This document shows positions 1,442 to 14,344 of a stretch of DNA of 64,000 nucleotides, piece by piece. The stretch spans positions 744,001-808,000 of the forward strand of contig NZ_CP053832.1 of the NCBI RefSeq assembly GCF_013372225.1, read 5' to 3'. How positions within the stretch are numbered: the stretch's first letter is position 1; every line of letters begins with the position of its first letter. Source of the stretch: Campylobacter ureolyticus (lineage in GTDB: Bacteria > Campylobacterota > Campylobacteria > Campylobacterales > Campylobacteraceae). The position numbers and the translations under genes are program-made. The notes beneath the pieces were generated by a model, which ran no database searches, was not told where the DNA came from, and saw only the letters and a program-made list of their open reading frames with translations.

Positions 1442-1624
1442 TTACTTATACATTTTAATTTTTATCGGCAATTTGCTTGAAATACTGCGACTATCTTGCG
1501 AATTTAAAATAACGGCTTGTGCGTTTTTATCGCTTAGTTTTGATAAGATATATTTTGCTTCGTCAAGGTCGATAAATCGTTTGTGTTTGCCCTTTTCGTC
1601 TAAAATTTGGCTGATAAAACTGAT
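1442..1624 (-). pseudogene. 3' remnant of an unidentified gene at the island boundary
   Basis: On the minus strand an open frame ends at a TAA at 1442-1444 and can be followed upstream for about 60 codons (ISFISQILDEKGKHKR to KLPIKIKMYK) with no start codon or ribosome binding site. Codon choice and composition resemble the dsbI region rather than the A+T-rich DNA that begins at about 1620, where the frame loses sense. I read it as the tail of a gene whose front was removed when the island inserted or when DNA was deleted here. No family was recognised. Confidence 0.5.
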
Positions 1625-1867
1625 ATGATTTATACTATTTTATTTTTGCCTAGTTTAATTTTTCAAACATTAAAAAACAAAAGTATAAAAAATCTAAAAT
1701 TTTACGGAAATATCCTAGTTTGGAGTTTTAAATATGGAAATAAAGATGAATATATTAATATGCTTCCAAATTATGCTCAAAGAATAGAAATAAGAGAGTA
1801 TTTTTTAGAAAAAATAGGAATAGATATTGATAAAACATTAAAAATAAGAAATATTTTTAAAATTTAA
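1607..1867 (+). pseudogene. C-terminal fragment of an island membrane-protein paralog
   Basis: The reading frame encodes a hydrophobic stretch, then about 55 cytoplasmic residues ending in IEIREYFLEKIGIDIDKTLK. This is the same C-terminal signature (charged residue, K/R-YF, then a D-K-rich tail) found at the end of the full paralogs at 3258, 4204, 9248 and 10245. The leader, first helices and beta domain are missing. Its nominal TTG start at 1607 lies in the sequence shared with the broken minus-strand gene, so it is probably not a real start. I read it as the outermost, truncated copy of the tandem array. Confidence 0.6.
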
Positions 1868-1971: not shown

Positions 1972-2134
1972 ATAAAAATAACAAATTTTTTAAAAACATT
2001 TAAACTAAGATAAAATTTGAATAATATTTAAGATTTAAAATATTAAAATAAAATAGTTTTTATTAAAACAACAAAAGGCTAAAATTTTAGTGCTGACAAA
2101 AGAGAAAAACTTAGAGAGTATTTAATAAATAATA
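1972..2134 (+). repeat. Direct repeat copy 1: intergenic promoter plus decayed leader
   Basis: About 160 bases nearly identical to 4090-4252, with single-base differences in a T run. The shared segment carries a likely promoter (several TAAAAT-type boxes) and runs into the first codons of the paralog leader. In this copy the TTG start of the intact copies reads TTT, and the frame (ADKREKLREYL and so on) stops after about 27 codons at 2170. It is thus a dead copy of the gene front. The rest of 1868-2204 holds nothing else I can support. Confidence 0.75.
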
Positions 2135-2204
2135 AAATTAATCAAAGTCTTGATTTAAAATTTTATATATAAATTTGCTAAATTTTAAAAAATAAATTAA
2201 AAAA

Positions 2205-2606: not shown

Positions 2607-3245
2607 ATGGAAACGATAAAAATAAAAAATTACTTAGCTACTTTATATCTCATAAATGCCACCATTTGGACAGTTGTTACAATAGTTGTCTTTTTTGATG
2701 GCGATGTTTCTTTTATTTTGAAATTTGGACTTTTGACAATGTGGATGAGCTTTGGATTAAATACTTTTATATGGGCGAAAAATAGTAAAGATAATTATAT
2801 GGAATTTAATAGTTTTGGCATAAAATTTATTAATAATAAAGGTGAAAACCTTATAAAATTTAGTGAAATTTTAGATATTAAAAGAACATTTGGATTTACA
2901 AATTTCCAAACTTCAAAAAATATTAAAATAATTATTTTAGTTTGTATTATGCTTTATTTTTTGGTAATTATTTTAAATAGCAAAAGTTTAAATGATAGAC
3001 TTGAAATTTTATATATTTTATTTGCTATGATTTTTATGCTTTTTATTTTTCCAGCTATTTTACTAAGAATTATAAACAAATCAAGGATTGATATTTTTTA
3101 TGATAGTCTCATAATTTATTCAAAAAGTGGTGAAATTTTAGAAATTATAATCTTAAATAAAGCCCAGTATCAAAAAATTAGGCGGTTTTTTATGAAATAT
3201 ACTCATAAAAACCTTAATAAAATAAAAAAAGAATTGATTATATAA
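2607..3245 (+). CDS. Four-helix membrane protein of the island paralog family (no leader)
   Basis: 212 residues with no recognised family. The layout matches the other island proteins: two helices (about 10-30 and 36-56), a 45-residue soluble part with strand pattern (NSFGIKFINNKGENLIKF), two more helices (about 105-123 and 131-153), then a cytoplasmic tail ending in a Y-x-K-I-R-R-F-F motif like the K-x-Y-F motif of its neighbours. Unlike the paralogs at 4204, 5277, 9248 and 10245 it lacks the Asn-rich leader. It starts 3 bases after the Sel1-like gene and ends 12 bases before the next gene, so the three are probably co-transcribed. Confidence 0.6.
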   Translation: METIKIKNYLATLYLINATIWTVVTIVVFFDGDVSFILKFGLLTMWMSFGLNTFIWAKNSKDNYMEFNSFGIKFINNKGENLIKFSEILDIKRTFGFTNFQTSKNIKIIILVCIMLYFLVIILNSKSLNDRLEILYILFAMIFMLFIFPAILLRIINKSRIDIFYDSLIIYSKSGEILEIIILNKAQYQKIRRFFMKYTHKNLNKIKKELII

Positions 3246-3257
3246 GAAGGAATTTTT

Positions 3258-4034
3258 ATGTCAAGAGAACAAGTTGCAAATAGAAAATTAGATGAAGTTG
3301 AAAAATATGTTGTGGATAAAATCAAAAATGTAAATTTAAATAATTCTCAAATTTCAGATAATAAAATAAATTCAATTAAACGAGATTATAATAAAGAGCC
3401 AATATTAATTCCAAATAAAGCTTTGGGTATTAACTTTTTATTTCTTATTTGCTCTTTGGCATTTATGTTTTTATTTGCTTTTATTTTCGGAGTGGAAATT
3501 AATTTTAAAAATTGGTCTGGTCAAGGTGCTTTGGCTGGTGCTCTCTTTTCAATAAAAGAATTTTTTACTGCAAGATATCAAAATATCAAATTTACAAACT
3601 CAAAAATTGAAATTATAGAAAATGAAATTATTGTTCAAAGTATAGAAAATAATAGTATTTATAAACTATTTTTGAATTATAGCAATGCTTATAGCTTTGA
3701 AAATAAAATTCCTATCTCGAAAGAGTTAATTATTTTTTCATTATTATTACTTGGAATATCTATTTTATATTTTAAGGGCTTTGGGGTATTTGCAATGCTT
3801 ATAGTTGCTCCAATTTTAGGATATTTTATTCCTAGAATTTATATATTTGGTAAAAATAGATTTAAAATGTCAAAATCTTTAGCTATATGCTATGAGAAAG
3901 ATAATAAAAAAGAATTTATAAATATACTAATTAAACCCGATTGGTATTTTGAGATAAAAGAATATTTTAAAAATGCAAAAAATATAAATATAAATAAAAA
4001 CAAAGTTGTTTTTTCGGTATTTGATAATATTTAA
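3258..4034 (+). CDS. Four-helix membrane protein of the island paralog family (hybrid leader)
   Basis: 258 residues with an AAGGA ribosome binding site and an ATG start. The first 30 residues (MSREQVANRKLDEVEKYVVD) match not the common MSDDKREK leader but the short orphan ORFs at 4045 and 5116. From residue 31 (NNSQISDNKINS, then KRDYNKEP) it rejoins the common leader. The body has helices at about 57-77 and 84-100, a strand-rich domain, helices near 155-175 and 177-195, and a tail with EIKEYFKN. The patchwork front suggests recombination between leader types. Function unknown; candidate immunity protein by context only. Confidence 0.65.
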   Translation: MSREQVANRKLDEVEKYVVDKIKNVNLNNSQISDNKINSIKRDYNKEPILIPNKALGINFLFLICSLAFMFLFAFIFGVEINFKNWSGQGALAGALFSIKEFFTARYQNIKFTNSKIEIIENEIIVQSIENNSIYKLFLNYSNAYSFENKIPISKELIIFSLLLLGISILYFKGFGVFAMLIVAPILGYFIPRIYIFGKNRFKMSKSLAICYEKDNKKEFINILIKPDWYFEIKEYFKNAKNININKNKVVFSVFDNI

Positions 4035-4044
4035 AGGAGTAAAT

Positions 4045-4080
4045 ATGAGTAGAGAAATCGTTGCTAAAAAAACAGCTTGA
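4045..4080 (+). other. Orphan 5' stub ORF (11 codons) behind a strong ribosome binding site
   Basis: AAAGGAG followed by ATG opens MSREIVAKKTA and then stops. The start matches the front of the gene at 3258 (MSREQVANRK), and a decayed relative of the same stub (ending AACAGCTTGA) occurs at about 10180-10212. It looks like the surviving front of a gene that has lost its body, though a short translated leader peptide is possible. Confidence 0.4.
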
Positions 4081-4089
4081 AATTTAACT

Positions 4090-4252
4090 ATAAAAATAAC
4101 AAATTTTTTTAAAAACATTTAAACTAAGATAAAATTTGAATAATATTTAAGATTTAAAATATTAAAATAAAATAGTTTTTATTAAAACAGCAAAGGCTAA
4201 AATTTGAGTGATGATAAAAGAGAAAAACTTAGAGAATATTTGAGAAATAATA
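4090..4252 (+). repeat. Direct repeat copy 2: promoter and leader of the 4204 gene
   Basis: Second copy of the 1972-2134 segment. Here the TTG start at 4204 is intact. Shorter versions of its last part (AAAACAACAAAAGG, a few bases, then TTGAGTGATGATAAAAG) precede the paralogs at 5277, 9248 and 10245. The repeat is long and conserved enough to act as a site for homologous recombination between gene copies. Confidence 0.75.
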
Positions 4253-5106
4253 GACCTAAAAATAGTGTAAATTTAGGTAATAGCTCTGATAATAAAGAAA
4301 AATCTAATAAAAATTTGGAAAATAATTTAAATTTGGATAACTCAATTTTAGACAATTCTCAAATTTCAAACAATAAAATAAATTCAAATAAAAGAGATTA
4401 CGATAAAGAACCGATTATTTTAAAAGACTATACGGCATATATGAAATTTCACTATTTTTTATATATTTCTTTTTGGGTTGCGGCTTCTTTTTTGCTATTT
4501 TTATATACTGCTTCAATTTATGAAAAATATGATATTGGCTTAAATATATTTCATTTTTTAATAGTTTTTATGATTTTTATATTGTTTGATATTTCTATAT
4601 TTCATAACTTAACTTCCACAAATTCAGTGACAAAAATTTATAATAATAGAGTTGAAATTTTTGAGAATGGATTTCTTAAAACTAAATTTTATATAAATAG
4701 TAAAGACAAAATAGAATTTTATACGTTTAAATCTTTTTTTAGAAATTATTTTATAATGTTTTTATTGATATTTTTATTGATATTTTTTGATAATAAATTT
4801 GAAGCATTAATAGTGCTATTATTTGTTATATTATCAATTATTATCGGACTTTTTTATAATATTTTAATCACTTCATATATTTATAAAAAATCAAACAAAA
4901 CACTTAAACATTTCTTTAAACATTATGGTAAATTTCATATAGATGTTGGTTGGGATAGATACTCAAAATTTTCATATTATATAGTAGAGCATAAAGGAAT
5001 TTCAATGTTTTATTTTAATGAAAATGACTATTTAGAGTTAAAAAAATATTTTCAAACAGTTCATAATAAAAATTTGGATAAAGATATAAAATTATTTAAA
5101 TTTTAA
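4204..5106 (+). CDS. Leader-bearing four-helix membrane protein, paralog 1
   Basis: 300 residues starting with TTG. Residues 1-75 are a hydrophilic, Asn-rich leader opening MSDDKREKLREYLRNNRP and ending KRDYDKEP. Helices lie at about 83-103, 113-133, 182-196 and 201-222. Between the second and third is a strand-rich soluble part with a possible small PH-like fold. The cytoplasmic tail has HIDVGWDRYS, then FNENDYLELKKYF and NLDKDIK. The tail is close to that of the 9248 paralog, and the leader is close to identical to that of the 5277 paralog even as DNA. No known family recognised. The gene has its own promoter-containing repeat upstream. Confidence 0.7.
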   Translation: MSDDKREKLREYLRNNRPKNSVNLGNSSDNKEKSNKNLENNLNLDNSILDNSQISNNKINSNKRDYDKEPIILKDYTAYMKFHYFLYISFWVAASFLLFLYTASIYEKYDIGLNIFHFLIVFMIFILFDISIFHNLTSTNSVTKIYNNRVEIFENGFLKTKFYINSKDKIEFYTFKSFFRNYFIMFLLIFLLIFFDNKFEALIVLLFVILSIIIGLFYNILITSYIYKKSNKTLKHFFKHYGKFHIDVGWDRYSKFSYYIVEHKGISMFYFNENDYLELKKYFQTVHNKNLDKDIKLFKF

Positions 5107-5115
5107 GGAGTAAAA

Positions 5116-5217
5116 ATGAGTGATTTCACAAGAATTAATAAAGTAAATAGCGAGCTAGATAAAGTAGAAAAAAGATACTTAAACGACAATAAAAATGTAG
5201 ATGATTTAAGAAACTAA
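5116..5217 (+). other. Orphan short ORF (33 codons) with strong ribosome binding site
   Basis: AAGGAG is followed at 5116 by an ATG opening MSDFTRINKVNSELDKVEKR and ending in DDLRN. It is hydrophilic and likely helical. The same pattern (TRIN, then EL-K) recurs in the orphan ORF at 11120, and part of it in the front of the 3258 gene. These look like heads of one gene family with their bodies deleted. They could instead be real small proteins. Confidence 0.45.
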
Positions 5218-5276
5218 TCCAGAATTATTTCAGCTGCATTATGATGGTTTTACTAAAACAACAAAAAGGTTAAAAT

Positions 5277-5921
5277 TTGAGTGATGATAAAAGAGAAAAA
5301 CTTAGAGAATATTTAAGAAATAATAGACCTAGAAATAATATAAATTTAGACAATAACTCTAATAATAAAGAAAAATCTAATAAAAATTTGGAAAATAATT
5401 TAAATTTGGATAACTCAATTTTAGACAATTCTCAAATTTCAAACAATAAGATAAATTCAAATAAAAGAGATTACGATAAAGAACCATTAATTATAAAAAA
5501 TTATGATAAATTTATGGAATGGGGTAATTTTGCTTTTTCCAAAATGTTTGCAAGTTCAAACATAGTGTTATTTTGGTTTTTGCTGGTTAAAGAAGATCTT
5601 TTAATGGTATTTTTTATGTTATTTTTAATTGTTTCGATTTGCATTATTTTTTTATATATGCCTTACAGATATTATGTTATTAATAATGAATATAAAACCG
5701 TATTTTATAATAATAAAATATGCTATTATCAAAATAATAAACTTTTAAAAGAGACAATATTTATAGACAAGAACAGTGTTGAGATTGTTAGATTATTTTG
5801 GAATGATTTTGTTGATAACAAAATACCAATATTTCTGTTATATGGATTGGTTATATTTTTTTCATTTAAAGAGCCACTATGTTTGATTTATTTTTTAGGC
5901 TCTGTTAAAATATTTTATTGA
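5277..5921 (+). pseudogene. Leader-bearing paralog 2, 5' half, split by the transposon
   Basis: A TTG start opens the common Asn-rich leader, then two helices, the soluble strand domain and part of the third helix. The genuine gene sequence ends at 5897, after codon 207. The last codons to 5921 (GSVKIFY and a stop) come from the transposon's left inverted repeat. The rest of the gene resumes in frame at 8977. Excising the transposon and one target duplication gives a 289-residue protein of the same length and layout as its siblings. The insertion is therefore recent relative to decay of the gene. Confidence 0.9.
5890..5897. repeat. Target site duplication, left copy
   Basis: ATTTTTTA directly before the left end of the transposon, identical to 8969-8976. 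Eight bases is the duplication length characteristic of the IS1595 family. Confidence 0.93.
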
Positions 5922-5925
5922 TTTT
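5898..5925 (+). repeat. Left terminal inverted repeat of the transposon
   Basis: 28 bases starting GGCTCTGTTAAAATATT, an exact reverse complement of 8941-8968. The match stops after base 5925 (TAAGC on this side, ATTAA on the other). Confidence 0.95.
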
Positions 5926-5940
5926 TAAGCTAATTTATAT

Positions 5941-5946
5941 TATAAT
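5941..5946 (+). promoter_or_regulatory. Probable -10 box of the transposase/R-M transcript
   Basis: A perfect TATAAT lies 36 bases before the transposase ATG, just inside the left inverted repeat. A strong AAGGAGG ribosome binding site follows at 5970-5976. All three element genes could be read from it. Confidence 0.5.
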
Positions 5947-5982
5947 TTCCTATATAAAATAACGATAGTAAGGAGGTTTGCG

Positions 5983-7005
5983 ATGAAAAATAAGACAACA
6001 GAGTTAGATATAATTTTACAGCTTTTTAACTCTCTTTCAAATGATGATAAAAAATCATTCATAAAAGAGATAAAAAATAAAGAAACTTCTAACAAAGTAT
6101 CTATCAAAAAAGAGATTAAATATTGTCCTCATTGTAAATCTACTAAATTTGTTAAAAATGGAAAAAGTAGCAATACTCAAAGATTTTTATGTAGAGATTG
6201 TAATAAAACATTTACTACTACAAATAATACGATATTTTTTAGTGTTAAAAAAGATATAAAAACCTGGAAATTATATATTCATTGTATGATAGAAAAATAT
6301 TCACTTAGAAAAACAGCTAAGATTTGTAATATTTCACTACCTACTGCATTTGCTTGGAGACATAAAATTTTAGATGCTTTGCAAATTATGATGAGTGAAG
6401 TTGAATTAAATGGAATAGTTGAAGCTGATGAAACTTTTATACCGCTATCTTTTAAAGGTAATCATAAAAATTTTAAATTGCCACGCTTAGCAAAGAAAAG
6501 AGGAACACCTGCTACTAAGCGTGGATTAAGTAGAGAGCAGGTCTGTGTAAGTTGTGGAATAAATTTAAATTGTTTATCTATTGCAAAAGTATCAAATCTT
6601 GGCAAACCTAAATTAAAAGATTTAGAAAAGGTTTTAAATGGTAAAATTATAAAAGATAGTATGTTTGTAACTGATAGTTTTAGAGCTTATTTAAAACTTG
6701 CAAAAGATATGGAGTTAAGTCATATTAGAATACCAAGAAACAAATATAAAGCTGGAACATTTAATATTCAAACTATAAATAGTTATCATAGTAGATTGAA
6801 AGCAATGATAACTTATAATTTTAAAGGTGTTTCAACTAAATATCTTAATAACTATCTTGTTTATCATAATTTTGTAAATTTTGCAAAAGACAATAAAAAT
6901 GACAAAGAGATAATTCTATTTGATTTTATACAAGAGAATGATTGTATAAGTAAATCTATTAACATCGCTAATAGACCAAATATACCATTGCCAGATGTGG
7001 CTTAG
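5983..7005 (+). CDS. IS1595-family (ISXO2-like) transposase
   Basis: 340 residues, full length for the family. An N-terminal zinc ribbon (C48-x2-C51 and C70-x2-C73) is followed by a helix-turn-helix-like stretch (about 105-130, SLRKTAKICNISLPTAFAW). The catalytic domain has E-A-D149-E-T, then V-T-D231-S, then N-S-x-H-S-R-L-K at 266-273. The Asn in place of the third acidic residue fits the DDNK type of this family. The gene starts behind a textbook AAGGAGG and lies between perfect inverted repeats. No damage is seen, so it is probably functional. Confidence 0.93.
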   Translation: MKNKTTELDIILQLFNSLSNDDKKSFIKEIKNKETSNKVSIKKEIKYCPHCKSTKFVKNGKSSNTQRFLCRDCNKTFTTTNNTIFFSVKKDIKTWKLYIHCMIEKYSLRKTAKICNISLPTAFAWRHKILDALQIMMSEVELNGIVEADETFIPLSFKGNHKNFKLPRLAKKRGTPATKRGLSREQVCVSCGINLNCLSIAKVSNLGKPKLKDLEKVLNGKIIKDSMFVTDSFRAYLKLAKDMELSHIRIPRNKYKAGTFNIQTINSYHSRLKAMITYNFKGVSTKYLNNYLVYHNFVNFAKDNKNDKEIILFDFIQENDCISKSINIANRPNIPLPDVA

Positions 7006-7016
7006 AAAGGGAAACA

Positions 7017-7841
7017 ATGACACTATGGACACAAAACAGCTTAGAGCTTGCAAATAATTATGATTATTTAGACAGATTATATTCTGTTTATCCTGTAATA
7101 TCTAATATAAGAAGAAATTTAGATCAAGAAACTATTAATGAATTATCATCCATGCTTACAAGTCCGCCAAATTTTGAACGAGGTAATTTATTAAGATTAT
7201 TATTAAATTTAGATATTTTTCCTATTAAAGATTCTTATGTTGCATATCTTAGACGAGATAGAAGTGCAATTGATCGCAATCCAAATACTGTATGTAGAAT
7301 TGAAAATATAATTGTAAATATGGGGCTTACAAATGTTTTGAATGAGATTACTAGACCTATTGAAGCAAATAGACAAATGGGTCAACATTTTAAAAATTGG
7401 GTAAATTCTACTAATTTTAATTTTGATAAAACAGATAATATAGATGTCTTTTTAAATACAGATACGCTAATGGTTTTTATTGGCAATGATAATATTATGT
7501 TAAATTTAGCAAAAGATATTTTTGGATACACAGGGAATAAAGGAATTGATTTTATTGCAAAAAGAGGTGAAAATGTAGCAATAGGAGAAGCTAAATTTCT
7601 TACAGATTTTGGTGGTCATCAAAATGCACAACTAAACGATGCTAAAAATATTTTACTAGATGGTTCTTTTACGCCTTGCGATTATCAAATTTTTCCTATT
7701 GCAATATTAGATGGTGTATTATATATTCAAAATACAGCCACTAGAATGACTAAAAATCATATGTCTGAGTTTGTTAATAATTCAACTAATGAACTTATAA
7801 TGTCTGCATTATTGCTAAGTAGTTTTGTGGTTACGTTATAA
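7017..7841 (+). CDS. Type II restriction endonuclease (PD-(D/E)XK), transposon passenger
   Basis: 274 residues. The catalytic core shows G-I-D178-F then, 12 residues later, G-E191-A-K193, the D...ExK arrangement of PD-(D/E)XK nucleases. The N-terminal 170 residues are helical and probably hold the recognition part. The methyltransferase gene follows with a TAATG overlap, so the pair is translationally coupled. The sequence reminds me of the Tsp45I group (GTSAC), but I cannot confirm that. The recognition site is therefore unknown. A short AAAGGG ribosome binding site precedes the ATG, 11 bases after the transposase stop. Confidence 0.82.
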   Translation: MTLWTQNSLELANNYDYLDRLYSVYPVISNIRRNLDQETINELSSMLTSPPNFERGNLLRLLLNLDIFPIKDSYVAYLRRDRSAIDRNPNTVCRIENIIVNMGLTNVLNEITRPIEANRQMGQHFKNWVNSTNFNFDKTDNIDVFLNTDTLMVFIGNDNIMLNLAKDIFGYTGNKGIDFIAKRGENVAIGEAKFLTDFGGHQNAQLNDAKNILLDGSFTPCDYQIFPIAILDGVLYIQNTATRMTKNHMSEFVNNSTNELIMSALLLSSFVVTL

Positions 7842-8923
7842 TGTCTATATCTTTAAATTATGATATAAAAAAGACTGAAATTGAAATTTTAGAAAAAATA
7901 AATAGATGTTCATCAGATAAATTAAATGTTATATATTCAGATCAAAAAACTAAACTTATATATCAAGATAATTTTCAAGCAATGTCTATTTTATTAAAAA
8001 CATATAATAATAAAATAGATTTAGTTTATATAGATCCCCCTTTTAATACAGGTCAGGATTTTTTTTATTCAAATTCTAGAACATCTTCAATATCTAATTC
8101 AGAAACAGATAAATTAGCATATAGTGATATTTTTGAATTAGATGATTATCTAGAATTTATTAGAGAAAGACTTTTTTTGATTCATAAATTATTAAGCGAT
8201 AAAGGAACTTTATATTTACATATTGATATAAAAATGGGACATTATATTAAAATTATATTAGATGAAATATTTGGAAAAGATAATTTTTTGAATGAAATTA
8301 CTCGTATAAAATCAAATCCTAAAAACTTTAAAAGAAAAGCATATGGAAATATAAAAGATACAATTTATGTCTATGCTAAAAAAAAATGTATGCAAATTTT
8401 TAATGACATATCTATAAAACTTAGCGATGAAGAGCTTTTAAAAAAATTTCCTAAAATAGACAAAAATGGCGAAAGATATACTACTGTTCCTTGCCATGCA
8501 CCAGGTGAAACACTAAATGGAAACACTGGAAAAAAATGGCGTGGCTTATTACCGCCAAAAGGAAGACACTGGAGAAGCTCTCCTGATGAATTAGAAATGT
8601 TAGATAAAACAGGTTTAATAGAATGGTCAAAAACAAACAACCCTCGCATTAAAAAATATGCAAAAGATCACAAAGGAAAAAAAATACAAGATATTTGGGG
8701 TAATTTTAAAGATCCACAATATCCAAAATACCCAACTGAAAAAAATTTAGAAATGTTAGAGCTTATTGTAAAGCAATCGTCTAATGAGAATTCTATTATA
8801 ATGGATTGTTTTTGTGGTAGTGGCTCCTTTTTAATTGCAGGTTTAAAAAATAATCGTAATGTTATCGGAATAGATATAAGTGAGCAAAGTATGAAAATTT
8901 CAAAGCAAAATATTATAAAATAA
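7841..8923 (+). CDS. Beta-class DNA methyltransferase of the transposon R-M pair
   Basis: 360 residues. The catalytic motif D65-P-P-F-N-T-G comes first and the S-adenosylmethionine motif D-C-F-C-G-S-G (322-328) comes last, the order that defines beta-class methyltransferases. DPPF favours N6-adenine as the product. The 130-320 stretch between them (GRHWRSS, then YPTEKN) is the target-recognition and helper region. It protects host DNA from the upstream endonuclease. It ends 17 bases before the right inverted repeat. The reading frame is intact. Confidence 0.9.
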   Translation: MSISLNYDIKKTEIEILEKINRCSSDKLNVIYSDQKTKLIYQDNFQAMSILLKTYNNKIDLVYIDPPFNTGQDFFYSNSRTSSISNSETDKLAYSDIFELDDYLEFIRERLFLIHKLLSDKGTLYLHIDIKMGHYIKIILDEIFGKDNFLNEITRIKSNPKNFKRKAYGNIKDTIYVYAKKKCMQIFNDISIKLSDEELLKKFPKIDKNGERYTTVPCHAPGETLNGNTGKKWRGLLPPKGRHWRSSPDELEMLDKTGLIEWSKTNNPRIKKYAKDHKGKKIQDIWGNFKDPQYPKYPTEKNLEMLELIVKQSSNENSIIMDCFCGSGSFLIAGLKNNRNVIGIDISEQSMKISKQNIIK

Positions 8924-8940
8924 AAATTTAATTTTTTAAT

Positions 8941-8968
8941 AAAATCAATAAAATATTTTAACAGAGCC
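8941..8968 (-). repeat. Right terminal inverted repeat of the transposon
   Basis: Exact reverse complement of 5898-5925. It ends in AACAGAGCC and is followed directly by the duplicated target. Confidence 0.95.
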
Positions 8969-8976
8969 ATTTTTTA
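8969..8976. repeat. Target site duplication, right copy
   Basis: ATTTTTTA, identical to 5890-5897. Confidence 0.93.
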
Positions 8977-9225
8977 TATTTAATAATGGTAGCTGGTTCA
9001 TATGTATTAGTTAAATTATTTTTGCATTATAATATAAATAATAGTTTTATATGTTTTACAAATTTTTCATCAGTATATTTGGTCGATAGTATAAATAAAA
9101 AAAATGATTTTTATTTATACTTTACTGCCAAAAATGATTATAAAAAACTGAGAAAGTATTTTTTATATAAATTTAATATAGACTTAAATAATACAAAAAA
9201 AGATTTTTTTAGTATGTATAATTAA
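8977..9225 (+). pseudogene. Leader-bearing paralog 2, 3' half
   Basis: 82 codons continue exactly in the frame of the 5' half once the transposon and one duplication are removed. They encode the rest of the fourth helix (YLIMVAGSYVLVKLFLHY) and a cytoplasmic tail with NDYKKLRKYF, the family's C-terminal signature. An in-frame ATG at 8986 could start translation, but there is no ribosome binding site. The fragment has probably lost function. Confidence 0.85.
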
Positions 9226-9247
9226 TAAAAACAAAAAAGGCTAAAAT

Positions 9248-10168
9248 TTGAGCGATGATAAAAGAGAAAAACTTAGAGAATATTTAAGAAATAATAGACC
9301 TAAAAATAGAGCAAATTTAGATAATAACTCTAACAATAAAGAAAAATCTAACAAAAATTTAGAAAATGATTTAAATTTGGATAATTCAAATTTAAATAAT
9401 AACTTAAATTTGGACAATTCTCAAATTTCAGATAATAAAATAAATTCGAATAAAAGAGATTACGATAAAGAGCCATTAATCTTAAAAGATTACACAGAGC
9501 ATATGTCTATGCACTTAGGATTATGTTTGATAGTTAGCTTTTTTATTTTTTTAAATTTTTCTAGTTTTTTTGAAGAATATGACTACGGAAATATAAATTT
9601 AATTTTTTTATTTGTTAATATGCTATTATTTATTGTATTTTTATTCATTGATATTTATTTGTTTATTTTTTTTAATTCAGTTAATCGTATTGTAGTTCTT
9701 TATAATTCATATGCCATATTTTATGAAGAAAATAAAATCACAAAAGAGTTTTTTCTTAAAGGTAAAAATATTGGAGTTAATTCTTTTTTTCATATGGTAA
9801 AAAGTATTATTTTTTTTATTATTCCAGTTCTTATTGTTTTAGTGATTTTGGAATCAATGGAAAAAGGTTTTTTATTTGGCTTTTGTTCATTATTTATCTT
9901 CATAGTTTCATTTATTACAATTATTTGCTACGATTTTTTATTTAGAAAAATTATTTATAAAAATATAAATGGTAATTTAAATGGATTCTATGACAACTGG
10001 CTAAAACTTCACATAGAAATTGGTTGGGAAAGGATGAGTGACCTTGTTACCAGAAGAGGAATTTCGCTATTTTTCTTTAACGAAAAAGACTATAAAGACC
10101 TAAAAGAATATATTCAAATAGTTTTTGATAAAAATTTAGATAAAGATATCAAATCAATTTCGGAATAA
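9248..10168 (+). CDS. Leader-bearing four-helix membrane protein, paralog 3
   Basis: 306 residues from a TTG start preceded by AAAAAGG. The leader MSDDKREKLREYLRNNRP is followed by an expanded Asn/Leu-rich stretch (NLDNS-NLNNN type repeats) to about residue 80. Four hydrophobic segments follow, two on each side of a short strand-rich domain (LYNSYAIFYEENKITKEF). The tail has HIEIGWERMS, FNEKDYKDLKEY and NLDKDIK, very close to paralog 1 at 4204. The middle of the protein is much less similar to its siblings than the two ends. Function unknown. Confidence 0.7.
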   Translation: MSDDKREKLREYLRNNRPKNRANLDNNSNNKEKSNKNLENDLNLDNSNLNNNLNLDNSQISDNKINSNKRDYDKEPLILKDYTEHMSMHLGLCLIVSFFIFLNFSSFFEEYDYGNINLIFLFVNMLLFIVFLFIDIYLFIFFNSVNRIVVLYNSYAIFYEENKITKEFFLKGKNIGVNSFFHMVKSIIFFIIPVLIVLVILESMEKGFLFGFCSLFIFIVSFITIICYDFLFRKIIYKNINGNLNGFYDNWLKLHIEIGWERMSDLVTRRGISLFFFNEKDYKDLKEYIQIVFDKNLDKDIKSISE

Positions 10169-10244
10169 GAAGGAAATTATAAATAGAGAAAACATTATAA
10201 AAAACAGCTTGAAATTTAATTATAAAACAACAAAAGGGTCCAAT

Positions 10245-11105
10245 TTGAGTGATGATAAAAGAGAAAAACTTAGAGAGTATTTAAGAAATAATCGACCTAA
10301 AAGTAAAATAAATTTAGGCAATAGCTCTAATAATAAAGAGAATTCTAATAAAAATTTGGAAAATGAATTAAATTTGTGTAATTCGAATTTAAACAATGAC
10401 TCAAATTCAAAAACCTTAAAAAATAGTTTAGATAATTCTCAAATTTCAAATAATAAAACAAATTCAAATAAAAGAGATTATGATAAAGAACCGTTGATTA
10501 TAAGAGATTACAATATGCACGAAACAGCCTTTTTTGCAGTTATTCTTTTGCTATTCTTTTTGTTTGATTTTATTTTTAATGACACAAGTGAGTTTTTCAC
10601 TCCAAAAAGAGTTGTTTTTATATTTATTCTTTTGGAAATTATTTTAGAATTATTTAAGTGTTTTTATAAAACTATTATTTTTTATGATTCAAAAATTGTC
10701 TATAAAAAAGGAAGCGATACAGCACTTGAAATAAATTTAAGCGACATAGTTGGAGTTTATAAAACTGCTATGTGTAATGAAAATTTTCAAACCCAAAAAT
10801 TTATTTCTAAAAAACTTTTTATTTTTGCTGCAGTTTTGGTCGGACTTGTTATGATTATTTTTGATTTTAATACATTTATATTCTTTTTTGGATGGATTTT
10901 TGCTATATTTTTTGGTGGCAAATTTATATTTTTTGTTCTTTTAAATAAAAAAATTGGTTTTAAAATTTATACTAGTTATTTAATAAAAACAGAGAAAAAC
11001 ATCATAAATTTTTTGCCAAAAGAAAGTGATAATATGGAAATAAAAAGATATTTCTTTGATAAATTAAAATATATAAAATTTGATAAACAATTACTTATTA
11101 GCTAA
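10245..11105 (+). CDS. Leader-bearing four-helix membrane protein, paralog 4
   Basis: 286 residues. I place the start at the TTG at 10245, which aligns with the MSDDKREK start of the siblings. An upstream in-frame TTG at 10209 lies in intergenic repeat sequence. The leader runs to KRDYDKEP at about residue 84. Helices follow, with a soluble part (FYDSKIVYKKGSDTALEI) between the pairs, then a short tail with MEIKRYFFDKLKYI. This body differs from those of the 4204 and 9248 paralogs and is closer in pattern to the 2607 and 3258 proteins. It shares the leader but has a different body. Confidence 0.7.
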   Translation: MSDDKREKLREYLRNNRPKSKINLGNSSNNKENSNKNLENELNLCNSNLNNDSNSKTLKNSLDNSQISNNKTNSNKRDYDKEPLIIRDYNMHETAFFAVILLLFFLFDFIFNDTSEFFTPKRVVFIFILLEIILELFKCFYKTIIFYDSKIVYKKGSDTALEINLSDIVGVYKTAMCNENFQTQKFISKKLFIFAAVLVGLVMIIFDFNTFIFFFGWIFAIFFGGKFIFFVLLNKKIGFKIYTSYLIKTEKNIINFLPKESDNMEIKRYFFDKLKYIKFDKQLLIS

Positions 11106-11119
11106 ACAAGGAGAAAACA

Positions 11120-11197
11120 ATGTCAAATACAAATACAAGAATTAATACTGCTCTTAAAGAGCTATCTAAGGCACAACAAGAATTAGGCTACTATTGA
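11120..11197 (+). other. Orphan short ORF (25 codons) with strong ribosome binding site
   Basis: AAGGAG and ATG open MSNTNTRINTALKELSKAQQ and stop after GYY. The N-terminus aligns loosely with the 5116 ORF (TRIN, then EL-K). It occupies the same place relative to the gene before it, directly after the stop of a leader-bearing paralog. It is probably a gene head without a body. Confidence 0.4.
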
Positions 11198-12634: not shown

Positions 12635-13090
12635 ATGCAAGTAGAACAAGAAAAACTTATTTTTATAATGAAGCAAAAAAAAGGAATAATAATTGTTTTA
12701 TACTATATATTTGCTACTCTTTGGGATTTAGCTACAGCATTTATCTGCATAATCTTTATGACTTTAGATAATGTCATTCCAAATATAATGGGATTTTTGA
12801 TTTTAGTTTTTATACCATACCAGTTTTTTTGTATGTTTGATATAAAAGAAGTTGTTTGTTATGAAGATTATTTACTAATTAAAAGAAAATTTTTTACTAA
12901 AAAAATTTTTTATAACCATCTAAAATATTATTGCTTTATGAGAGCAGTTAGAACTAAAATATTAGGACTTAGATTCAAAAAATATAGACTTACAGTAGCC
13001 ATTAATGAATATATGTTTAAACCAAGTGATATCCAAGAATTTATAAAAATCCTAGAAAGTAAAAAAATATCAAAGTATTCGCTATTTTGA
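12635..13090 (+). CDS. Two-helix membrane protein with a strand-rich C-terminal domain
   Basis: 151 residues. Helices lie at about 17-40 and 46-66. The soluble part that follows (VVCYEDYLLIKRKFF to LKYYCF) has the alternating pattern of a small PH-like beta domain. It ends in a helix (PSDIQEFIKILESKK). This is the helix-helix-beta half of the island paralogs, without the second helix pair. The ribosome binding site is AAAGG. It sits in front of the effector debris and, like the paralogs, is only a candidate immunity protein. Confidence 0.6.
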   Translation: MQVEQEKLIFIMKQKKGIIIVLYYIFATLWDLATAFICIIFMTLDNVIPNIMGFLILVFIPYQFFCMFDIKEVVCYEDYLLIKRKFFTKKIFYNHLKYYCFMRAVRTKILGLRFKKYRLTVAINEYMFKPSDIQEFIKILESKKISKYSLF

Positions 13091-13104
13091 AAAAGGAGGT
13101 TTAA

Positions 13105-13311
13105 ATGCAAGGTTATGTATATACAAAAGATAATAACAGAACAAAGGAAGCAGTAGTAGTTGATAAAAATAGTGGAAAAACTATAGCATTATCAAGTTTT
13201 AGTGATGGCACCATTAGTGAAGGAATGAAAACTGTTGCAGAAACTGCTAAAGGTGTGGCACGAGAACTATTGCTGGTAAAGTATTTTAATAACTTAAAGG
13301 TCTCTTTATGA
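13105..13311 (+). CDS. Short soluble protein, possibly the truncated head of an effector
   Basis: 68 residues behind a very strong AAAGGAGG site, with an ATG start. The first 45 residues (YVYTKDNNRTKEAVVVDKNS, then ISEGMKTVAETAKGVARE) look like a folded or repeat-type head. The last 15 look like frame-shifted random sequence. The stop overlaps the ATG of the lipoprotein gene. I read it as the front of a larger secreted protein whose body was lost. Not recognised. Confidence 0.45.
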   Translation: MQGYVYTKDNNRTKEAVVVDKNSGKTIALSSFSDGTISEGMKTVAETAKGVARELLLVKYFNNLKVSL

Positions 13312-13727: not shown

Positions 13728-14344
13728 TATTTTTGGTAAAGATGAGAGACCTCATACTTTTTAGGGATAGCAGATGGTGCTGGTAATGCGATATATAAAG
13801 GGTTTGGACCAAGTGAGCATGGCTTAATTAAAGTTGGAAATGGAATTGTTAGTGATGAATAAAAATGAGATGCATGAATAGCAACACAAAATAGAATTTA
13901 ATATATCGCAAAAACAATATGATGATTTAATAAGCAATATAGAAAAAAGTTCAAAAAATTCACCAAAATATCATTTGCCATCTGGTGCTCAATGTACTGT
14001 TTGGGCTATGGATATGTTGTATTAGTCAAATATTATAGATTCTTTTGGCATTTTTGAGCATTATACCGACATGAGAGAGAAATCCACTTGCTGGTTTTGC
14101 TCAAACTTTATTAATAAATCCATATATTCAGTTTTTTGGAAGTATTATAGATAATTTTTTTTAGAATCAATGAGGCATTAGATTATTGAAAAAATAAGTT
14201 TACCTCTCTAACCATCTACGACCCTTTAATCCTTGATTTAAATGGTGATGGTATAAAAACTATGTAATAGAAATTTATCCAGATGAGTATATTGGCAAAC
14301 AAGAAACAACTGGAGATGAAATTCTAAATCTAATAAAAAATTAA
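13702..14344 (+). pseudogene. Decayed effector: permuted papain-like amidase region plus DPLILDLNGDGI region
   Basis: An ATG at 13702 (site AAAAGGAG) opens MPKVAIYTDIFGKDERPHTF and stops. One extra T joins it to GIADGAGNAIYKGFGPSEHG in another frame. After further lesions come ISQKQYDDLISNIEKSSKNS, HLPSGAQCTVWAMDMLY, NPLAGFAQTLLINPYIQFF, and SLTIYDPLILDLNGDGIKT. The last frame is IEIYPDEYIGKQETTGDEIL, ending at 14344. An early His (PHTF), Y-GF-P and a later Q-C-T-V-W-A is the order of permuted NlpC/P60-like amidases. The YDPLILDLNGDGI motif occurs in large secreted RTX-like or polymorphic toxins. At least three frame changes and two internal stops show it is dead. Confidence 0.65.

Follow-up and report, generated by a model that had tools for sequence, protein, structure and literature searches.

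Organization of the locus

The window is a stretch of 64,000 nucleotides from the closed 1.82-Mb genome of Campylobacter ureolyticus (NZ_CP053832.1, positions 744,001–808,000), termed the host genome below. Four open reading frames (ORFs) in it, all on the plus strand and all with a TTG start, begin with a nearly constant leader of about 75 codons that ends in KRDYDKEP (Table 1). The first-pass annotation described these four as an array of membrane-protein genes. The leader is common to all four, and three of the four genes are intact; gene 2 is broken at position 5897 by an IS1595-type element. The array is also longer than first described, with two further family members and two remnants located upstream of gene 1. 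Additionally, stubs of 11–33 codons that match the start of RTX-type toxin genes sit between the genes.

Table 1. Features of the array in the window.
Feature	Position	Strand	Evidence or remark
Decayed 3′ end of a family member	1622..1867	+	Family profile E 4e-11 on ORF 1607-1867
Decayed leader remnant without start (DKREKLREYL..)	2086..2140 (about)	+	Repeat families D2 and D5; sequence
Family member without standard leader, then toxin start fused to the neighboring gene	2607..3245	+	Family profile E 1e-9; toxin-start profile score 18.9
Family member, 5′ part a toxin start (MSREQVANRKLDEVEKYVVDKIKN) joined to leader end and body	3258..4034	+	
Toxin-start stub MSREIVAKKTA*	4045..4080	+	Too short for profile scoring
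Immunity-like gene 1, leader-bearing, intact, TTG start	4204..5106	+	
Toxin-start stub MSDFTRINKVNSELDKVEKRYLNDNKNVDDLRN*	5116..5217	+	Held-out match to toxin-start profile, score 17.8
Gene 2, leader-bearing, 5′ part, cut by the IS	5277..5897	+	ORF 5277-5921
IS1595-type element, 3071 bp, interrupting gene 2	5898..8968	+	Terminal inverted repeats; 8-bp target duplication ATTTTTTA
IS transposase	5983-7005		Pfam DDE_Tnp_IS1595 1.5e-11
Tsp45I-type restriction enzyme in the IS	7017-7841		Pfam Tsp45I 2.4e-72
DNA methylase in the IS	7841-8923		Pfam N6_N4_Mtase 4.5e-42
Gene 2, 3′ part	8977..9225	+	ORF 8986-9225, family profile E 5e-10
Immunity-like gene 3, leader-bearing, intact	9248..10168	+	Product modeled (P0002)
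Immunity-like gene 4, leader-bearing, intact	10245..11105	+	
Probable toxin-start stub MSNTNTRINTALKELSKAQQELGYY*	11120..11197	+	Behind a family gene; weak score 6.0
RTX toxin constant-segment remnant (YDPLILDLNGDGIKT)	14205..14264	+	tblastn: toxin P0013 E 0.002, P0015 E 0.007

The element inside gene 2 combines an ISXO2-like DDE transposase with terminal inverted repeats and an 8-bp target duplication, which are the properties of the IS1595 family. Three copies with 99.97–100% identity are present in the host genome (in the window, at about 1172.8 kb and at about 1241.6 kb), and a separate 8-bp target duplication flanks each of them. With its complete Tsp45I-type restriction–modification pair, the element is a recently mobile restriction–modification system.

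Predicted fold of the family

No array protein was assigned to a family from Pfam, NCBIfam, or PADLOC, and when solved structures were searched by sequence, the family had no match and the toxin head no convincing one. Structure prediction, proposed in the first-pass annotation, was run on P0002 and on the toxin head and yielded a PH-like fold for P0002. The AF2 model (pLDDT 79.6) starts with an N-terminal helix (residues 3–15) that is followed by a disordered arm up to about residue 66. The subsequent β-sheet is interrupted by hairpins at residues 83–143 and 181–241, and a helix is located at the end. The layout of four helices, initially not recognized, thus becomes recognizable in the predicted model as a PH-like fold that is cut by two transmembrane hairpins. 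Among the structural matches listed, nearly all are PH or PTB-like folds, the best of them with a middling Z of 7.6 (rmsd 3.4 over 93 residues). A Foldseek search of the model against the PDB gave no match at E ≤0.001. Of what characterizes a bacterial PH domain, the PH-like fold is present in the predicted P0002 model only; the Pfam cut-off for the bPH family was reached by no array protein.

Constant leader and exchange of bodies

In 60-nt bins, pairwise DNA identity amounts to about 80–100% at the start and the end of the leader and is looser in its middle, in keeping with the conservation at DNA level that had been noted. Straight behind KRDYDKEP it drops to 35–60%, which is the background level of AT-rich DNA. 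The DNA alignment therefore places the identity break at a single sharp position, the opposite of the evenly spread divergence that the first-pass annotation had named as counterevidence. In the host genome, 20 family matches are found in eight places, most of them with the common leader, and the family is present in 29 of the 120 genomes searched from the same taxonomic family (the named relatives are Campylobacter and related Campylobacterales). The leader family is thus not a product of chance.

The selection pressure varies along the leader. The ratio pN/pS is 0.02 for the first 17 codons, 0.55 for the disordered codons that follow, and 0.24 for the last 14 leader codons. The strong purifying selection on the first 17 codons indicates that the leader is kept as a protein and is more than a recombination anchor.

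Recombination behind a constant front, suspected from the four genes, is supported by observations at other loci and between species. Within the host genome, the block 1057267-1055949 is identical to 1148389-1147071 over 1319 nt; it extends from 13 nt before one leader start to 94 nt into the next leader. Past this block, the two genes (g1055 and g1146) have the leader in common and unrelated bodies. Between species, similar bodies are found behind unrelated leaders, with body identities of 87% (G005 versus G003), 70% (G003 versus the host genome), and 48–55% (host versus G001 and G013). Bodies consequently travel, and leaders are local. In G003, one family gene (L035, 1501-2463) has its 3′ third swapped in frame for an RTX constant segment, which makes it an immunity/toxin chimera.

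Toxin genes downstream of the family

In relatives, family genes are located within about 60 nt upstream of RTX-type toxin genes on the same strand, and many of these toxin genes begin with MSRExxAxxELDxAExRL. The toxin head was found in eight of the 120 genomes, in all eight directly downstream of a family gene. The chance that all eight fall among the 29 family-bearing genomes is ∼5e-6 (hand calculation). Most head-bearing proteins belong to the RTX class associated with type I secretion. For one pair the preceding gene encodes VgrG: in G102, two family genes stand between VgrG and a head-like protein. In another genus (G092), the toxin frame contains 22 RTX motifs in 2405+ aa and begins in overlap with the stop codon of a family gene; this long frame runs off the contig. 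A currently active toxin/immunity pair was not found in the same genus, as the head-bearing toxin genes there stop short of the secretion end.

The host genome itself, searched together with the 120 genomes, has no toxin-head match. It encodes HlyB (TIGR01846, 808 bits), HlyD, and TolC (OEP) together with large RTX proteins, and HemolysinCabind repeats (PF00353) occur in both the toxin partners and the host RTX proteins, so that repeats and exporter of an RTX/type I secretion system are present. Two host arrays are adjoined by secretion or RTX genes. No family relatives were found in plasmids and phages, so nothing points to either of these as a vehicle.

A profile built from 11 toxin starts was scored up to 70 nt downstream of genes. 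It matched behind 22 of 102 family genes, compared to one of 745 control genes; 11 of the 22 matches are held-out ones, two of them in the window. Behind the remaining 80 family genes, no toxin start was recognizable within 70 nt.

Immunity body and toxin head vary together. Across 12 adjacent pairs, their similarities correlate with a Mantel Spearman r of 0.53 (p 0.0008), or 0.47 (p 0.0016) when one duplicate toxin is left out. The exception is found in G003, where two modules share an identical toxin and have immunity bodies that are 34% identical, from which it follows that recombination can also fall between the immunity gene and the toxin gene of a module. DNA identity along two modules is U-shaped: it amounts to 77–78% in the leader, 39–63% in the body, 95–97% from the immunity end to the toxin start, 44–61% in the head, and 92–97% in the RTX region. 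The relatives thus display variable heads on a shared RTX region and, next to them, polymorphic immunity genes that vary in step with the toxin domain (with the one exception in G003), as is typical of polymorphic toxins.

A probable orphan immunity array

Judged from gene order, stubs, and co-variation, the genes probably form an immunity family, and the window array would then consist of orphan immunity genes of a polymorphic toxin system. Among the three roles initially considered, immunity against related effectors gained from the same evidence; phage defense and surface variation gained nothing. The absence of an intact toxin head from the host genome and the stubs behind the window genes point to the window as a graveyard of orphan immunity genes.

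The system would belong to Campylobacter-type bacteria, and its toxins would mostly be RTX proteins of the class handled by type I secretion. In the putative intact module, the toxin gene directly follows the gene for the membrane immunity protein, and the toxin carries a variable, glycine- and hydrophobic-rich N-terminal head in front of the shared RTX region. This order would keep the immunity body beside the toxin head. The constant immunity leader and the constant RTX region would permit homologous recombination to swap the variable part between them; the identity breaks are sharp, and body and head may be exchanged jointly. In the host genome, heads would have been lost and immunity genes and toxin-start stubs retained, presumably because the orphan copies protect from neighbors that still make toxins. 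Each protein is predicted to sit in the inner membrane, with two transmembrane hairpins that interrupt a PH-like domain and with the conserved N-terminal helix held on a disordered arm.

Two extensions of this scheme are weaker. The immunity protein may block a toxin head that inserts into the inner membrane, a tentative proposal to which we give slightly less than an even chance. With a toxin-head model of low quality (pLDDT 51), the pore-forming reading is drawn from head composition. Rather doubtful is the idea that leader and RTX region serve as matched constant flanks for unit exchange and that, in some relatives, silent modules and orphan immunity genes arise with the help of a dedicated palindromic element, which is nearly confined to the cut ends of these toxin genes. 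If true, the unit exchange of an "immunity body plus toxin head" cassette would be the mirror image of contact-dependent growth inhibition (CDI).

A description of the family was not found in the open-licence literature searched. The toxin–immunity system would be large and is apparently undescribed, with ∼20 immunity-like copies in the host genome, and the family would account for many anonymous membrane proteins of the genus. A rule for toxins of type I secretion that can be tested would also follow: where the export region is C-terminal, the immunity gene should be sought upstream.

Alternative explanations

The strongest competitor, which we nevertheless consider improbable, is that the family assists RTX toxins in an accessory role, for example as membrane adaptors or helpers in export. 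Such proteins would be predicted to show this gene order as well, and there is a precedent in DdE and DdF, pleckstrin-homology-domain membrane proteins that help to transport the leaderless bacteriocin enterocin DD14 (PMC8657885, PMC13262744). However, many copies persist without a toxin (20 matches and no toxin head in the host genome), the polymorphic bodies co-vary with the variable head and not with the shared export region, and the pair at the VgrG locus implies a different export route.

Still less probable is an array of mere debris, in which paralogs decay after insertion and recombination and have no present function. Several genome copies do contain internal stops, one is split by the IS, and stubs and remnants are abundant; the three intact window genes and the near absence of nonsynonymous change at the start of the leader argue against decay as the whole account.

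Surface or phase variation, with the exposed body of a membrane antigen swapped behind a constant front, would fit the mosaic exchange and is very unlikely, because the predicted PH-like core appears cytoplasmic, as does the disordered, hydrophilic leader, and the consistent toxin-gene neighbor would be left unexplained. Membrane effectors of a phage-defense system, suggested by variable clusters of membrane proteins near restriction–modification genes, are the least likely reading, since those genes belong to the mobile IS with its two near-identical copies elsewhere, no PADLOC defense model is matched (0 matches), and no sensor or nuclease partner recurs.

Comparison with known systems

The orphan-immunity reading can be placed among several described systems. 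Polymorphic toxin systems including CDI (Zhang et al. 2012, PMC3482391) resemble it in having a variable toxin domain attached to a common trafficking region, an adjacent polymorphic immunity gene, and recombination with displaced modules. Unlike in CDI, the toxin domain here is N-terminal and the immunity gene upstream, which is the reverse arrangement. In a text search of part of that paper, no polymorphic system of such a form came up that uses type I secretion; RTX toxins are treated there as host-directed toxins. CDI ionophore toxins (PMC11630599) also act on membranes and have polymorphic immunity proteins with ∼30% identity within one group, but they differ in CdiA delivery, the C-terminal toxin, and gene order.

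In the Vibrio cholerae T6SS, displaced effectors likewise leave arrays of orphan immunity genes that were gained by recombination (PMC5361080). The secretion route is different, and here the immunity genes precede the toxin and have the same constant coding leader. A precedent for the upstream position is Smlt3024/Smlt3025, an effector that resembles the N-terminal part of an RTX protein and the immunity gene directly upstream of it (PMC6759196). FrpD is a lipoprotein that attaches to the N-terminal portion of the RTX protein FrpC, and Smlt3025 is structurally similar to FrpD; neither FrpD nor Smlt3025 is presented in that study as a four-helix membrane protein (PMC6759196).

The Cdz system of Caulobacter crescentus (PMC5380434) shares type I secretion, glycine-rich killing proteins, and a small transmembrane immunity protein. 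Cdz proteins are 84–86 aa long and carry N-terminal signals, whereas the toxins here are large and have RTX repeats behind the head. An assignment to Cdz was rejected for this reason, as small glycine-zipper proteins (about 85 aa) with N-terminal signals would be expected.

Palindromic elements and neighboring genes

In some relatives, an AT-rich palindrome of 53–87 nt is located exactly at the cut points of toxin genes and is oriented as the module (L052–L056 and L094 of G003; L064, L068, L083, and L090). At L083 it comes after a 26-codon toxin stub. In G003, all matches across the genome fall inside the three module arrays; other genomes contain single or few copies, mostly beside such modules. 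An integron reading is not claimed because no tyrosine recombinase lies near the G003 arrays and a search of the host genome returned none of the palindromes.

Different membrane genes (MVLFYIIL or MEIVVSFIF) precede lipase-like toxins in G003 (L053, L056, and L094), and this order suggests further immunity families that are likewise placed upstream. In the host genome, the array at 1055-1057 kb is separated from HlyD by the gene for an unassigned 515-aa membrane protein (L037, 416-1963), a shorter relative of which occurs in G008 (L098).

Within the window, another small membrane protein with weak bPH_4 resemblance is encoded at 12635-13311, and a short ORF behind it (13105) may be a different toxin stub. 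The segment 13308-13860 holds what is probably a lipoprotein gene and, behind it, a disrupted reading frame (ADGAGNAIYKGFGPSEHG); the two may represent a further immunity gene with a decayed effector.
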